Below, in pieces: positions 45,294-50,813 of a stretch of 64,000 nt of DNA. The notes below the pieces were generated by a model, which did no database searches, was not told the DNA's origin, and saw only the letters and a list, made by a program, of their open reading frames with translations. The DNA is from Lysobacteraceae bacterium NML95-0200 (GTDB taxonomy: Bacteria; Pseudomonadota; Gammaproteobacteria; Xanthomonadales; Xanthomonadaceae). Every line of letters begins with the position of its first letter. The stretch's first letter is position 1. The translations under genes and the position numbers were made by a program. The stretch spans positions 62,001 through 126,000 of the forward strand of contig NWQQ01000020.1 in assembly GCA_002798255.1 (NCBI GenBank), read 5' to 3'.

Positions 45294-45370
45294 CGGGGTA
45301 TAGCGCAGCCTGGTAGCGCACTTGTCTGGGGGACAAGTGGTCGTCGGTTCGAATCCGGCTACCCCGACCA
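45294..45370 (+). tRNA. tRNA-Pro(GGG), prophage attachment site
   Basis: A 77-base tRNA with encoded CCA. CTTGT/ACAAG closes the loop CTGGGGG, giving anticodon GGG. The acceptor stem CGGGGTA/TACCCCG is perfect. The integrase gene starts its 3' end 83 bases downstream, so the tRNA 3' half is the likely left attachment core. Confidence 0.97.
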
Positions 45371-45426: not shown

Positions 45427-45457
45427 CACCCTATTTCCACCCTATTTCCACCCTATC
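45427..45457. repeat. Tandem 11-bp repeats, candidate integrase arm sites
   Basis: CACCCTATTTC occurs twice in direct tandem (45427-45437 and 45438-45448), followed by a shortened CACCCTATC (45449-45457) that overlaps the integrase stop. Clustered short direct repeats next to an att core fit arm-type binding sites of lambda-class integrases. Confidence 0.55.
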
Positions 45458-46553
45458 GCTTGAGGGTGAGCCCCGGCGCAACATCTGTCCATGGCAGGTC
45501 GTGACCGTCCAGATATACCTCGGTCATGTTGAGGCTGCCGTGACCCATCAGCGCCTGAACCTGCTGCTTTGTCCATCCGGCTTCACTTATCAAGAGGGCG
45601 CCGCCCAGGCTACGAATTTCATGGAAGGTGGGTGGGTTATCGCCTGTGATGCCCAGGCTCTCACGCACATCTGCAAAGGCGCGAGTGATTTGCTCTGGCA
45701 GCAATTGGGTATGGTGCTCACGGTGTGCGGCGCGCATTTCCCTTGGCCTGGCCTTGCCCGGCATGCGGTGAATCAGGTAGGGCGATACGACGTTATCCCG
45801 GCAGCGGGCAATCAGCGCTTGGAGTGTCGGTGTCATGCTGATGCGCAGTCGTACACTGGTGCTGCCTTCGGTCTTTTGGGGCACCACCCAGAGGGCGCCA
45901 TCGCGGATATCTTTGAACTGGGCAGCAGCCACATCTTCGCGGCGCAGCAGGGTAAGCAGCGATAAGTCCATAGCGTTTTGCAACCATGCAGGGGCAGCAG
46001 CATGGATGCGCTGGTATGTCTCAATGGTCAGGCGCTCACGCTTGCGTGAGTGAGCAAACTTGCGTGTTTGCTCCGCCGGGTTACTGTCAATCCAGCCCTC
46101 TTGCAATGCGCAGGCCAATATCCAGCCAAGCACCAGACGGTAGGTCTGGCGGCTGCGTGCAGACTCGGTAACGGTGCGGATATATTCGGCGCAGTCCTTG
46201 ACGGTCAAGCTTTCAAGCTCGCGTGTACCGAGGTCAGTCTCGATGCGGGCAATGAATACTGCATACCAGACAGCTGTCTTTTCTGCCCAGCCGCGACCGG
46301 GCATATCATCTTCGCGGAAGATACGGATGGCATCGGCCACGGTGTGCCGACCGCCGATAACCCGTCCGACCAAGTCGTTGCTTTGGGTTAACAGGGCATT
46401 GAGCTTTTTGGCAGCGGCAAATGCCTTGGCTTTATCCATGCCCATCCATGTTTCCTTGCGAGTGATGGGGTGGCGGTATTTGTAGCCGTTTCTGTTTGGA
46501 TAGAGATTATCCGGCCAGCCAGTACGGTTGCGGGCGCGCTTCCTGGGTGTCAT
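45453..46553 (-). CDS. int: Lambda-type tyrosine integrase
   Basis: A 366-residue site-specific recombinase. The N-terminal arm-binding domain has NLYPNRNGYKYRHPITRKE, matching the lambda Int arm domain. Catalytic residues can be placed as R204 (LLRREDV), K227, H311 and R314 (FHEIRSL), H338 (LMGHGS) and nucleophile Y347 (TEVYLDGH). It is the last gene of the leftward cluster, directly after xis. The complete catalytic set suggests activity. Confidence 0.95.
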   Translation of the reverse strand: MTPRKRARNRTGWPDNLYPNRNGYKYRHPITRKETWMGMDKAKAFAAAKKLNALLTQSNDLVGRVIGGRHTVADAIRIFREDDMPGRGWAEKTAVWYAVFIARIETDLGTRELESLTVKDCAEYIRTVTESARSRQTYRLVLGWILACALQEGWIDSNPAEQTRKFAHSRKRERLTIETYQRIHAAAPAWLQNAMDLSLLTLLRREDVAAAQFKDIRDGALWVVPQKTEGSTSVRLRISMTPTLQALIARCRDNVVSPYLIHRMPGKARPREMRAAHREHHTQLLPEQITRAFADVRESLGITGDNPPTFHEIRSLGGALLISEAGWTKQQVQALMGHGSLNMTEVYLDGHDLPWTDVAPGLTLKR

Positions 46554-47437: not shown

Positions 47438-48273
47438 TACTGATGCTCCAGTGCACGCACAAGGTGGATGAGGGTGCACGCATCGCCGTCGGCCAGGTGC
47501 AGGTTTTCTTCGATGGTGCGCTCGATGGCTTCCTGTAGGCGGCGCGCGCGTTCTGCCTCCTTCTCCGCCCAGCGCTCGGCAAAGAGCAAGCAACTGGTGG
47601 TGGTGACGTAGCGGGTATCGCCGGTTTCCCAGTCGAAAAAGTTGAGCGCGGCCTGCCAAATCTCGGGCAGCGGGCTGCGTTCCCCCTTGAATCTGTCGGC
47701 GGCGGCCGGGCGGTTGTCGATGACATGGAAGTACACGGACTTGCAGGCGTGCATGTCGGCACGCGCATCGTGGGCGTTTTCAATCGGTTTGCCCATGTAG
47801 TGCTGATAGGCCTTGGCGAGGCTAGGGCCGTATGGCTTTTCCGGTTGCAGGCCGCGCGTGAGGTTTTGGGTGCAGAGGGCGCGGCCTTCTTGCCAGGCTT
47901 TCAGGGTGCGCGGGTCAAACTCTGCCGAGCACAGGGCGGAATGGATGATGGCGGCATCAAAGGTTTCGTTGTGGGCGATGCGCATGTCGGCGCGCGCCCA
48001 CAGGCTGAGGAATGCCTGGAGCGCTTGATGTGTGCTGATGCCAAACTGTTTGGCATGCTCGGTGGTGATGCCGTGAATGGCGGTGGCCTGGATGGGGATT
48101 TCCCAGTCGTCGGGGGCAATCAGCAGGTTGATTTCCTGGACGGTTTCGCGGGTATTGGCATCGACCAGGGCGGCGGCGAGCTGCACCAGCCGGGGCTGGC
48201 GCGCGTCGTTGGGGGGCAGGTCGTCGTGATACAGGCCGGTGGTTTCGGTGTCGTAGAACAGAAGCAGGCTCAT
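47437..48273 (-). CDS. DEDDh 3'-5' exonuclease (exonuclease X/DnaQ-like)
   Basis: A 278-residue protein with the DnaQ-like fold. D8 and E10 are in FYDTETTGL, the Exo II Asp is in HNETFDAAII, and the Exo III His-Asp pair is in NAHDARADMHACKSV. These are the DEDDh metal ligands. The C-terminal 80 residues are extra and helical (RWAEKEAERARRLQEAIERT). The likely role is degradation of DNA ends in phage recombination or host takeover. AGGAGA precedes ATG 48273, which overlaps the antirepressor stop by 4 bases. Confidence 0.87.
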   Translation of the reverse strand: MSLLLFYDTETTGLYHDDLPPNDARQPRLVQLAAALVDANTRETVQEINLLIAPDDWEIPIQATAIHGITTEHAKQFGISTHQALQAFLSLWARADMRIAHNETFDAAIIHSALCSAEFDPRTLKAWQEGRALCTQNLTRGLQPEKPYGPSLAKAYQHYMGKPIENAHDARADMHACKSVYFHVIDNRPAAADRFKGERSPLPEIWQAALNFFDWETGDTRYVTTTSCLLFAERWAEKEAERARRLQEAIERTIEENLHLADGDACTLIHLVRALEHQ

Positions 48274-49091
48274 GAGAAGTCTCCTTGGGCGGGCATCAGG
48301 GCGCGGACGGTGGGGGTGTTTTTGTTGCCTGCGGGGATTTCCACGAGGAAAGCCTTGGCTTCCGGGCGTTTGTGTAGGCAGGCGAGGATTTCCTGGCCGA
48401 TGAGCATCGACACGCTCCAGGCCTTGATGAGGTGGTGTTTGGCTTCGTCCAGGTTGAAGTCGTCTGCCACGGGGATCAGGACACGCGCTTCGGGCAGCGC
48501 CGGCAAGGCGGGGGCGGATTCCAGCGCGTGGCGGGCGATGAGGCTGACCGCTTCGCTGTACTGGCTGGCCGGGATTTCGCGGTAGGGCACGCCAAAGTGC
48601 GCCTTGAGCTTGCTCCAGCCGCGTTGCAGGAATGCGCCTTGCTGGGCGTGCGGGAGTTTTTGGGCGGCTTCGGTGAGCAGGCGGCGCAGTTCGTCGGCTT
48701 GTTCGGCGCTCAAGGTTTGGCCGGGCAGCACGGCGTAGGGGCGGGCGTCTTGCTTTTGCCAAGCTGCCCACAGAACATCATCGGCTTCATTTTGATACGC
48801 AATGATTTTTTCGCGCAGTTCGGGCTTGACTTTATTGGGGCTAATAGTTGCCAGCCAGCCGGGCAGTTTCCGAAGCGGCAAACAGACCATGCCTTGTGTG
48901 CCCCTTGAAGTAGGTATAACGATTTCCGTAATACCCCAGCGGGATGTGTTAGCTTTGAGTTTTGCGAACTGTGCTGCCCAATCCATCCCCATGCCAGAAA
49001 CTACTGGCTTCATAGGGACATAGGGCTGTTGGTTGTGTTCAACAACGAGAAGGGTTGCGCCGCGAAAGGCGACTTCGAGTGCCTGAGTCAT
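48270..49091 (-). CDS. Phage antirepressor, P22 AR-N type (full length)
   Basis: A 273-residue protein starting at ATG 49091 (AGGAG six bases upstream). The N-terminal 110 residues are a P22_AR_N domain: ATLLVVEHNQQPYVPMKPVV, then WAAQFAKLKANTSRWGI, VCLPLRKLPGWLATI and VKPELREKIIAYQNE. The C-terminal half carries AVLPGQTLSAEQADELRRLL and a helical domain. Antirepressors of this type bind and disable the prophage repressor. The next gene upstream is a paralogue. Confidence 0.86.
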   Translation of the reverse strand: MTQALEVAFRGATLLVVEHNQQPYVPMKPVVSGMGMDWAAQFAKLKANTSRWGITEIVIPTSRGTQGMVCLPLRKLPGWLATISPNKVKPELREKIIAYQNEADDVLWAAWQKQDARPYAVLPGQTLSAEQADELRRLLTEAAQKLPHAQQGAFLQRGWSKLKAHFGVPYREIPASQYSEAVSLIARHALESAPALPALPEARVLIPVADDFNLDEAKHHLIKAWSVSMLIGQEILACLHKRPEAKAFLVEIPAGNKNTPTVRALMPAQGDFS

Positions 49092-49092
49092 G

Positions 49093-49764
49093 TCATGCTC
49101 CTTGGTGAGTCTTAAAACTCCGGCCAGCCGTTTTGAAGCGGCATGGGCGGGCGAGATGTTCAAAACACGTACCAAGCCGTGCCGCCGTCCTCGCGGATAG
49201 GCGCATCTCGCCCAAAAAATCGGGCATGACAAAGCCGCGCTTTCGTGGCGGCTCTGACGCTTGGCATAGGTGTTTTGAAGCACCTGATACAACCCTAGCA
49301 TGGTCATGGTGGGAAATGCAAGCGTGGGAGGTATTGTGATTTTCCCAACACCTGAGTTCGTCGGCCTGTTCGGCGGAAAGGGTCTGGCCGGGCAGCACGG
49401 CGTAGGGGCGGGATTCGTCAGCCGCGCCGAAGTGCCGGGCGAGGACGTCGAAGCATTCGCGTTGGTACTGGATGAGCTTTTCGCGCAGTTCCGGCTTGGC
49501 GCGGCTGGCGTGGATGCCGAACAGCCAGCCGTTGAGTTTGTCCAGCGGGAGGCAGACGGTTTGCTGTGCGCCGCCTTTGGAAGGTATGTCCATTATGGAC
49601 ATACCTTCGGAAAGCACCGGGTGTCGCTTGATGCGCTTGAATTGAGCTTCCCATTGCAGGCCGATGGCTTCGGCGATGGGCTTGAGGGCGACAAAGGGCT
49701 TGCCTTCGATGGTGGTGGCAAGCAGGGTTTGGCCGTGGAAGGCCACAGGGACGAGCTTATTCAT
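49093..49764 (-). CDS. Phage antirepressor paralogue with shortened/altered C-terminus
   Basis: A 223-residue frame starting at ATG 49764 with AAGGA in its ribosome site. Residues 1-115 form a P22_AR_N domain (VPVAFHGQTLLATTIEGKPF, then PIAEAIGLQWEAQFKRIKRH, VCLPLDKLNGWLFGI). After AVLPGQTLSAEQADELR the sequence leaves the homology with its neighbour. The remaining 80 residues (CWENHNTSHACISHHDHARV onward) read through the leader of the next gene and look non-coding-like. It may be a 3'-deleted copy. Its ribosome site is the target of the C4-type antisense element. Confidence 0.8.
   Translation of the reverse strand: MNKLVPVAFHGQTLLATTIEGKPFVALKPIAEAIGLQWEAQFKRIKRHPVLSEGMSIMDIPSKGGAQQTVCLPLDKLNGWLFGIHASRAKPELREKLIQYQRECFDVLARHFGAADESRPYAVLPGQTLSAEQADELRCWENHNTSHACISHHDHARVVSGASKHLCQASEPPRKRGFVMPDFLGEMRLSARTAARLGTCFEHLARPCRFKTAGRSFKTHQGA
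49233..49321 (-). promoter_or_regulatory. Probable promoter and hairpin leader of the second antirepressor
   Basis: On the minus strand, -35 TTGCAT (49321-49316), an 18-base spacer and -10 TAGGGT (49297-49292) precede a hairpin AGCCGC/GCGGCT (49253-49233) with loop CACGAAAGC and a short T-run. The hairpin lies about 140 bases before the antirepressor start, leaving a long untranslated leader. Confidence 0.5.
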
Positions 49765-49773
49765 GGTTGGATT

Positions 49774-49811
49774 CCTTGTACGAGTGAGGAATCCGCCACG
49801 CCGCTGTCAAA
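49774..49811 (-). promoter_or_regulatory. C4 target site over the antirepressor ribosome site
   Basis: Reading leftward: box TTTGACAG (49811-49804) then box GTACAAGG (49781-49774), whose AAGGA tail is the Shine-Dalgarno of the antirepressor starting at 49764. Both boxes are complementary to the antisense boxes at 49834-49840 and 49846-49853. Confidence 0.7.
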
Positions 49812-49833
49812 CGAGGTGGCGGACGACGCGGGG

Positions 49834-50001
49834 TTGACAGACCGGGTACAAGGAACCGGCAGGGCGTGCGCCCTCCCCGCGCCGCCCGCCATTGAACGGG
49901 TTGCGCTGCGCAACAGGCCGCCACCGATGGGCGGGCAAAGAAAAAGCGCCGGGCATCGGAAGGATGGGCGCTGCTGCGCCTTGTACATCGGGCTGTCAAA
50001 C
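49834..50001 (-). ncRNA. C4-type antisense RNA controlling the antirepressor
   Basis: Reading leftward, the element holds sense boxes TTTGACAG (50000-49993) and GTACAAGG (49986-49979). About 125 bases of GC-rich, hairpin-forming RNA follow, then antisense boxes CCTTGTAC (49853-49846) and CTGTCAA (49840-49834). The outer boxes pair with each other to close a long stem, or can pair with the identical second set over the antirepressor start. That is the logic of the C4 RNA of phages P1 and P7, which represses ant translation in trans. No protein gene fits here. Confidence 0.72.
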
Positions 50002-50031
50002 CCGGCACGCGAATTGGCGCGTGCGGGGGTG

Positions 50032-50060
50032 ATGATGCACAGGTCGTGGGCGGGTGTCAA
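50032..50060 (-). promoter_or_regulatory. Promoter of the C4/antirepressor transcript
   Basis: A perfect -35 TTGACA (50060-50055), a 17-base spacer and -10 CATCAT (50037-50032), reading left. Transcription would start near 50025, some 25 bases before the first C4 box. Confidence 0.68.
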
Positions 50061-50063
50061 GTG

Positions 50064-50092
50064 TTGATGGCGTGTAATCGTTCGATTACTAT
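50064..50092 (+). promoter_or_regulatory. Promoter with palindromic operator for the DUF4258 operon
   Basis: -35 TTGATG (50064-50069), 17-base spacer, -10 TACTAT (50087-50092). The palindrome GTAATCG-TT-CGATTAC at 50074-50089 fills the spacer and half the -10. The ATG at 50100 would be at or very near the transcription start, so the message is probably leaderless. Autoregulation by the antitoxin-like protein is the obvious guess. Confidence 0.62.
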
Positions 50093-50099
50093 CGCGCCC

Positions 50100-50354
50100 A
50101 TGTTCAGTGAACGCTTCCAGCTTCCCATCCGCTTGAGCCGCCATGCCCAGATCCGCATGGTAGAGCGCGGTGTCGATGCGGCCATGGTGCTTGACTTGGT
50201 GGAAACCGGCACGCTCAAGTTCAAGGACGAGCGCCGCTTTTGGGCGTTCAAGCACTACGCAGGCCGTGAGGACAACCTGATTTGCGTGGCGGCTGTGCTG
50301 GAAGATGTGTTGTTCGTCAAGACGCTGATGCACCATTTCACCCCGGAGGATTGA
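50100..50354 (+). CDS. DUF4258 protein (toxin-like)
   Basis: An 84-residue protein: LSRHAQIRMVERGVDAAMVL, then DERRFWAFKHYAGRED and VLEDVLFVKTLMHHF. The HAxxRMxxRG start and the pair of beta strands are the DUF4258 fold, related to the RelE/MqsR barrel of mRNA-cleaving toxins. No ribosome site precedes ATG 50100. It heads a three-gene operon with DUF2283 and an HTH antidote-type gene. Confidence 0.82.
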   Translation: MFSERFQLPIRLSRHAQIRMVERGVDAAMVLDLVETGTLKFKDERRFWAFKHYAGREDNLICVAAVLEDVLFVKTLMHHFTPED

Positions 50355-50357
50355 ACG

Positions 50358-50543
50358 ATGCGAACCTCTTACGATGCCGAAGATGACATCCTTGTGTTGC
50401 GGATGAGCGACAAGCCCATCGTGCGGGAAACCTCGCAGGACTGGAACACCTGTATCAGCTATGCCGCTGATGGCACGGTGGTGGAAGTGGTGGTGCTGGA
50501 AGCCAGCCAGCAGGGCGCGTGGCCGTTGCAACAGGCGGCTTGA
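50358..50543 (+). CDS. DUF2283 protein
   Basis: A 61-residue protein, MRTSYDAEDDILVLRMSDKP followed by a strand-rich ISYAADGTVVEVVVLEAS. This is the compact DUF2283 fold commonly coded beside DUF4258 proteins. It may be the cognate antitoxin or a third component; this is inference from pairing. It lies three bases after the DUF4258 gene. Confidence 0.82.
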   Translation: MRTSYDAEDDILVLRMSDKPIVRETSQDWNTCISYAADGTVVEVVVLEASQQGAWPLQQAA

Positions 50544-50546
50544 GCG

Positions 50547-50813
50547 ATGACCGTGAAATCCATGACCGATAGCCCGGAAGATATTGCCGGGCATTTGTCG
50601 CGCGTGATGCAAAACCATGATCCGGCGCTGCTGGCAGCCGCCTTGGGCAGCCTTGCCAAAGCGCATGGCATGACCCGTGTGGCCGAAGAGTCCGGCCTGA
50701 CCCGCGAGGCGCTCTACAAGGCGCTGCGACCCGGCGCGCAGCCGCGCTTTGAAACAGTGCAGCGGGTGATGCAGGCCTTGGGCGTGGAGCTGCGGGTAGT
50801 GCCTGCCTCTTGA
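50547..50813 (+). CDS. Addiction-module antidote-like HTH protein
   Basis: An 88-residue protein with ALGSLAKAHGMTRVAEESGL, then TREALYKALRPGAQPRFETV and QRVMQALGVELRV. This is the signature of the HI1420-type putative addiction-module antidotes. The HTH is at about 42-70. It is the best candidate to bind the palindrome in the operon promoter. It follows DUF2283 by three bases. Its usual partner, a HigB/RelE-like HI1419 toxin, is not present. Confidence 0.85.
   Translation: MTVKSMTDSPEDIAGHLSRVMQNHDPALLAAALGSLAKAHGMTRVAEESGLTREALYKALRPGAQPRFETVQRVMQALGVELRVVPAS

Follow-up and report, generated by a model that had tools for sequence, protein, structure and literature searches.

In the window (the whole stretch of 64,000 nucleotides that was analysed), a leftward leader in front of two antirepressor-type genes appears to be a prophage immunity switch in which one C4 RNA would act twice, blocking translation through the box pair a2b2 and transcription through the box pair a1b1; we put the probability of this reading at roughly 0.58. 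The locus has a C4 fold with two loops, complementarity to both box pairs, and a box b2 that lies on the Shine-Dalgarno site; past b1 there are two hairpins that exclude each other.

Under the proposed mechanism, a single transcript from the promoter at 50060 would carry a1-b1, an attenuator-like element, the C4 RNA, the a2-b2 leader and the two antirepressor genes. The C4 RNA would be cut from read-through transcripts and act in trans at two points. On a2b2 it would block translation of ORF1, and that of ORF2 as well by coupling. On the a1b1 of later nascent leaders it would occupy the first bases of strand 1 and break hairpin 1:2, which would free strand 2 to form the terminator hairpin 2:3 and end transcription ahead of C4 and the antirepressor genes. 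C4 would thereby hold both its own level and the operon low, and both blocks would lift where C4 is scarce, either on entry into a non-immune cell or when a short a1b1 RNA captures C4.

The promoter, a1-b1, b'-a', a2-b2 and the ATG at 49764 were all located within 49762-50060 on the minus strand. The features of the locus are as follows.

50074-50089, no strand assigned: operator-like inverted repeat GTAATCG-TT-CGATTAC, directly upstream of the promoter and between divergent genes
50032-50060, minus: sigma-70-like promoter TTGACA-17-CATCAT (TTGACA at 50060-50055, CATCAT at 50037-50032)
50005-50024, minus: 5' leader hairpin GCACGCG-CCAATT-CGCGTGC
49993-50000, minus: box a1, TTTGACAG, in the loop of a small hairpin
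49979-49986, minus: box b1, GTACAAGG, which shares its final two bases with the beginning of strand 1
49967-49980, minus: competing hairpin 1:2, GGCGC-AGCA-GCGCC, the proposed antiterminator
49937-49972, minus: terminator-like hairpin 2:3, AGCGCC ... GGCGCT with inner CATC/GATG, followed by TTTTTCTTT
49812-49896, minus: C4 antisense RNA (RF01695), for which analogy would put the mature 5' end near 49890
49855-49846, minus: box b', TTCCTTGTAC, inside the C4 hairpin loop
49840-49834, minus: box a', CTGTCAA, unpaired in the C4 fold
49804-49811, minus: box a2, TTTGACAG
49772-49781, minus: box b2, GTACAAGGAA, over the Shine-Dalgarno site of ORF1
49093-49764, minus: ORF1, antirepressor-type protein with P22_AR_N (E 1e-35), PHROG 'anti-repressor Ant'
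48270-49091, minus: ORF2, second antirepressor-type protein with its own P22_AR_N domain

The first-pass annotation had described a leftward transcript from TTGACA-17-CATCAT with boxes a and b, their complements in reverse order, and then a and b again with b on the Shine-Dalgarno site of an antirepressor gene starting at 49764. The promoter elements are present where it had put them on the minus strand, and no second promoter-like site was found in 49700-50200 (shuffles gave a mean of 0.1). All the boxes were likewise found as placed, with AAGGA inside b2, eight bases ahead of the ATG. The a pairing runs over 7 bases and not 8, its first T being unpaired. Box b' pairs over 8 bases with b1 and over 10 Watson-Crick bases with b2. 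Dinucleotide shuffling of 49762-50060 reproduced the complete order a1b1 - b'a' - a2b2 in 16 of 20,000 cases.

A covariance search with the Rfam C4 model, the check that the annotation had asked for, gave a match to RF01695 at 49896-49812 of 76.4 bits against a cut-off of 45 (E 3.7e-13). The C4 part folds into the canonical three-stem form (z-score -5.0), in which a hairpin loop holds b' while a' stays single-stranded, a' and b' are complementary to boxes on both sides, and b2 covers the Shine-Dalgarno site of a gene that does have the P22_AR_N domain and does match PHROG 'anti-repressor Ant'. The locus is a further C4 switch of the known type: the original observation is confirmed and its reading supported. 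The expected product needs revision, from a processed RNA of 100-200 nt ending near 49830 to one of about 49890-49812, because the analogous P1 C4 RNA is 77 nt long (PMC5320573). Repression of the antirepressor in lysogens, and immunity to related phages, would follow by analogy with P1 and P7.

The part of the leader that the annotation had missed is the three-strand element GGCGC-AGCA-GCGCC...GGCGC-TTTTT, which can fold either as hairpin 1:2 or as the terminator-like hairpin 2:3. Conservation of this element was followed in other C4 leaders. Of 60 genomes sampled among relatives, 9 have RF01695 matches, as do 73 of 398 genomes of the order and 24 of 369 genomes of the class, each count including the window's own genome. 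Among the matches listed in a scan of viral contigs, 33 of 120 viral stretches held a C4 match that was used; a model derived from 45 C4 sequences served to confirm the viral-contig loci. The resulting 152 distinct leaders, P1 and P7 included, were drawn by their C4 matches and are part of all matches; the genome samples are uneven and many of the leaders are related.

A hairpin followed by a T run stands upstream of C4 in 135 of the 152 leaders. At the window's leader, which has the hairpin and TTTTTCTTT, a strict scan for simple terminators called none. A competing hairpin whose 3' arm is the 5' arm of the terminator-like hairpin is found in 128 of these 135. At the score applied to the controls, 126 of the 135 leaders have one; so do 885 of 2700 shuffles and, among terminator-like hairpins elsewhere in the fetched DNA, 147 of 569. 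The chance of a competing hairpin is not small for any single leader, yet a frequency of 93% is not explained by chance. The competing helix takes 24 forms, one of them spurious (L026). GGCGC/GCGCC occurs in 93 leaders, the window's among them, P1 and P7 have TGCGG/CCGCA, and further forms include GCGGC/GCCGC, AAGCGT/GCGCTT, GAGAGC/GCTCTC, AGGCAC/GTGCCT and GAGCGC/GCGCTC. Three leaders in which the chosen hairpin is visibly spurious (L026, L100 and L239) were dropped from the 128, and 125 were kept.

In 125 of the 125 leaders kept, the b1:b' duplex ends inside strand 1, by 1, 2, 3 or 4 bases in 5, 83, 21 and 16 leaders, respectively, in a search for b1 whose span, from 12 bases ahead of the start of strand 1 to 4 bases past it, left no room for ends beyond 4. 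The overlap is two bases in the window, and the letters shared by b1 and strand 1 vary with the helix (GG, TG, AAG, GCG, GAG, TGG and GTGG). Since the duplex ends within strand 1, b' must fit two places at once, the Shine-Dalgarno sequence in b2 and, through b1, the beginning of the competing hairpin.

Both of the alternative helices have covariation scores above those of 500 out of 500 shuffles (0.205 vs 0.088 and 0.208 vs 0.133; 45 leaders), in a plain MAFFT sequence alignment (A2) in which several divergent rows are misplaced. The 45 come from 57 leaders chosen among the 125; the 12 left out, which are three near-copies (L010, L043 and L206c) and nine leaders of unusual geometry, may by their omission favour the structure, and relatedness inflates covariation counts. 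Controls slid along the alignment were lower in cells paired and in covariation score, but not on all measures (a slide of +2 gave 10 further pair types against 8). In leaders without GGCGC, a test that swapped strand 1 and strand 2 between leaders gave a weak result, with own pairs reaching the mark in 32 of 46 cases against 40% of swaps.

In folding predictions, blocking b1 in silico raised the probability of the window's terminator hairpin from 0.14 to 0.99. The median over 113 leaders, which were those with an automatic b1 call ending 1-5 bases inside strand 1, rose from 0.56 to 1.00; the automatic calling chose wrong loops in several leaders. The rise exceeded 0.1 in 82 of the 113, and a fall of more than 0.1 was seen in one (L003, the second module of this prophage, from 0.76 to 0.54). 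The median was 1.00 with the overlap bases alone blocked, 0.54 with b1 minus the overlap, and 0.51 with control segments. For P1 the probability went from 0.57 to 1.00 and for P7 from 0.96 to 1.00. Before strand 3 is made, hairpin 1:2 has a median probability of 1.00. The terminator is favoured even without C4 in 29 of the 113 leaders, and the window's leader with a longer 3' end also adopts the terminator form without C4, so the proposed mechanism needs hairpin 1:2 to form first. Two properties of an attenuator are found here: two mutually exclusive hairpins with the later one terminator-like, from predicted folds and covariation, and a regulator site that overlaps the competing hairpin, in the window and in all 125 leaders kept.

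The main alternative is that C4 acts here in the classical way only. It would block translation at a2b2, the a1b1 boxes would be a by-product of box duplication, and the hairpins would end some transcripts regardless of C4. The P1 record is in keeping with this, since it names a2 and b2 alone as targets of repression and calls a1 and b1 'putative'; competing hairpins also turn up in 26-33% of controls. The pairing of b' with its two boxes bears on both sides. At least 6 Watson-Crick bases between a leader's own b' and own b1 are present in 112 of 125 leaders, against 8.8% with swapped C4s, and for b2 the figures are 107 of 125 against 23.5%. Both boxes pair in 98 leaders, b1 alone in 14, b2 alone in nine and neither in four. 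The nine leaders that pair at b2 and lack a 6-base Watson-Crick pairing at b1 suit the classical account, while the 14 in the reverse situation do not; by these counts the conservation of a1b1 is on a par with that of the known target. A by-product would also have to account for an overlap of b1 with strand 1 that persists in 125 of 125 leaders as the letters change, and for covariation in both helices. We regard the classical account as unlikely, while giving it real weight, and favour control at both levels.

Some C4 leaders depart from this plan. No terminator-like hairpin was found in 17 of the 152 leaders. Twelve of those 17, together with L100 and L239, were assigned by eye to a large-hairpin class with no T run after b1 (L071, L057, L089, L100, L153, L165, L198, L215, L216, L222, L227, L228, L230 and L239). 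In most members a1 and b1 pair with C4 and no b2 was seen. Since this class mostly keeps the a1b1 pairing, a1b1 cannot serve only an attenuator. Unusual arrangements of the C4 unit itself were also encountered. Genome G677 has four tandem units within 1.4 kb (L206:1610-3092), upstream of a 570-aa ORF; three of them have the same b' loop and all four a' loops differ. Genome G001 has two units 364 bases apart (L175:9637-10085), and some genomes of genus g40 have at least 10 C4 matches. A Zoogloeaceae metagenome-assembled genome (L050) has the window's b' loop in an otherwise different C4 leader, with the competing helix GGCGG/CCGCC.

A different role for the upstream boxes would make the short terminated leader itself the regulator. 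This IsrK-like RNA, carrying a1b1, would capture C4 or remodel the long transcript and so activate the antirepressor, and the hairpins would set the ratio of short to long RNA. Such a role has been published for Gifsy-1, where IsrK is described as opening translation of orf45 (PMC4825925) and where supplying IsrK in trans increased anrP translation 140-fold and the level of the long transcript about 8-fold (PMC4825925). The effect on the long transcript fits the two-point mechanism as well, because IsrK would capture C4. Gifsy-1 STnc1160 (~80 nt) is probably C4, and the report that constitutive STnc1160 strengthened the IsrK growth arrest (PMC4825925) counts against such capture. The window's leader does match the isrK family (RF01394), with 45.9 at 50024-49939, below the cut-off of 50. 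Regulation by the short leader would leave unexplained why b1 ends within the competing hairpin in 125 of 125 leaders, and we think it improbable as an account in its own right; it is compatible with attenuation and may act alongside it.

The operon that C4 would control encodes two predicted antirepressors. ORF2 starts one base past the stop codon of ORF1 (TGACATG), is the longer of the two, and has a P22_AR_N domain that shares 50% identity with the ORF1 domain across 137 residues. An Icd-like protein between ORF1 and ORF2 was not found in NCBIfam (two proteins), the fetched loci or the phage records (one frame), so no gene here is named icd. Copies of a 53-base direct repeat of the 3' half of tRNA-Pro, one at 45324 and the other outside the window at 89250, delimit a prophage of about 44 kb in a host genome of 2.38 Mb. 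Genes for an integrase (45453-46553), RdgC, RecT and YqaJ are nearby, and a similarity search of phage DNA returned one weak match only, in an unannotated record. That the module is decaying, with ORF1 broken by recombination and the switch left without a working antirepressor to control, is very improbable: although the ORF1 tail past P22_AR_N matches nothing in the fetched loci apart from the window, every box is intact and so are the two hairpins, the two reading frames abut and the second brings its own P22_AR_N, and the direct repeat still flanks the prophage.

On the other side of the promoter, the inverted repeat GTAATCG-TT-CGATTAC is the sole exact copy in the 90 kb examined. Another perfect inverted repeat, CACAACATGTTGTG, stands at 83671, upstream of the second C4 module of the prophage, and the two are candidate repressor operators. 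A divergent trio at 50100-50813 on the plus strand (DUF4258, DUF2283 and an HI1420-type addiction module antidote) adjoins the C4 promoter and is perhaps a toxin-antitoxin or repressor unit.

The host genome has three C4 matches. Besides the one in the window, there is a match on contig C13 and another in the same prophage, about 33 kb rightward. The last of these belongs to the second module (L172:18491-19489, window coordinates about 82491-83489, beyond the window), which has different a and b boxes, scores 52.8 against the c4-a1b1 family (RF03163; cut-off 46.7) and stands before a Bro-N protein. By eye, the C-terminal part of this Bro-N protein resembles that of ORF2. Also beyond the window, L172:10169-18022 encodes a 2617-aa phage protein with LPD38, ART-PolyVal, PBECR3, MuF_C and LPD3 domains. 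The genome's third C4 locus (L002:1417-2555) has an isrK match upstream (53.4) and an int-alpA RNA match downstream; no Pfam family matched the two ORFs scanned past its C4. The b' loops are specific among the three loci, scoring 19 to 27.5 with their own b1 and b2 and 8 to 14.5 with foreign ones. For the a loops the separation is smaller (own 17 to 23, foreign 8.5 to 18), and the a' of C13 does slightly better with the a2 of the third listed locus (18) than with its own (17). The three modules would presumably not silence one another.

Beyond this prophage, we lean slightly towards a general scheme in which C4 systems widely, P1 and P7 included, would have a three-strand attenuator with an antiterminator that starts inside b1, and would shut the operon by premature termination together with a translation block. 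The C4, c4-a1b1 and isrK families would then be pieces of one element, and IsrK the terminated leader of a C4 locus. The scheme would give a role to a1 and b1, which are only putative sites in the P1 record, and a single mechanism would cover three RNA families as well as the two experimental systems, P1 c4 and Gifsy-1 IsrK. If it is true, one small RNA with one pair of loops exerts two levels of control on the antirepressor operon, and because b' has to suit a ribosome binding site as well as the beginning of an antiterminator, new immunity groups should be limited in how they arise.

The window's switch is like C4 of P1 and P7 in its covariance match, its b'-a' loops, the order a1b1 - C4 - a2b2, the placement of b2 over the Shine-Dalgarno site and the antirepressor operon, and the leaders of P1 and P7 also carry a three-strand element past b1. 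The P1 record lists no terminator in this leader. It is unlike them in its C4 loop sequences, and unlike P1, in which icd comes first after b2 and then ant1, its first gene is itself of the antirepressor type. In Gifsy-1, isrK is matched at 34316-34240 and C4 at 34214-34131 of the same strand, and because isrK adjoins the C4 match upstream, IsrK can be read as the terminated leader of a C4 locus. IsrK resembles the window's leader in its leader hairpins, its a1b1-like boxes and a terminator, in the window a terminator-like hairpin, immediately before the C4 match; it differs in that the competing hairpin is weak, with 3-4 pairs in our own reading. Judged by eye, the 34 isrK matches found in 274 genomes divide into 29 that stand directly upstream of a C4 match, three of these being in the window's genome, and five that do not. 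The c4-a1b1 family describes the same place and boxes, with the window scoring 32.4 at 50037-49985, below the cut-off.

Unlike C4, sar of phage P22 is not known to be processed out of the leader of the transcript that it targets. As a described antisense repressor of an antirepressor (PMC12197685), it is like C4 in being an antisense RNA against this type of gene. Acinetobacter C4-like RNAs are reported to be apparently cut from longer transcripts (PMC5320573), and isrK is listed beside C4 in Xylella (PMC12189769). Our literature search, which did not extend to the 1990-1995 papers on P1 and P7, turned up no paper recognisably about leader attenuation by C4; the terms 'c4 antisense' and 'phage P1' are absent from the main text of the IsrK paper (PMC4825925). 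The nearest precedent is a suggestion in that paper, whose authors considered that STnc1160 may act at the terminator like P4 CI (PMC4825925). The P4 CI RNA is described as a processed antisense RNA that pairs with seqA and seqC, up- and downstream of it, and causes premature termination (PMC4825925), and on the published description alone it resembles the action proposed here for C4.
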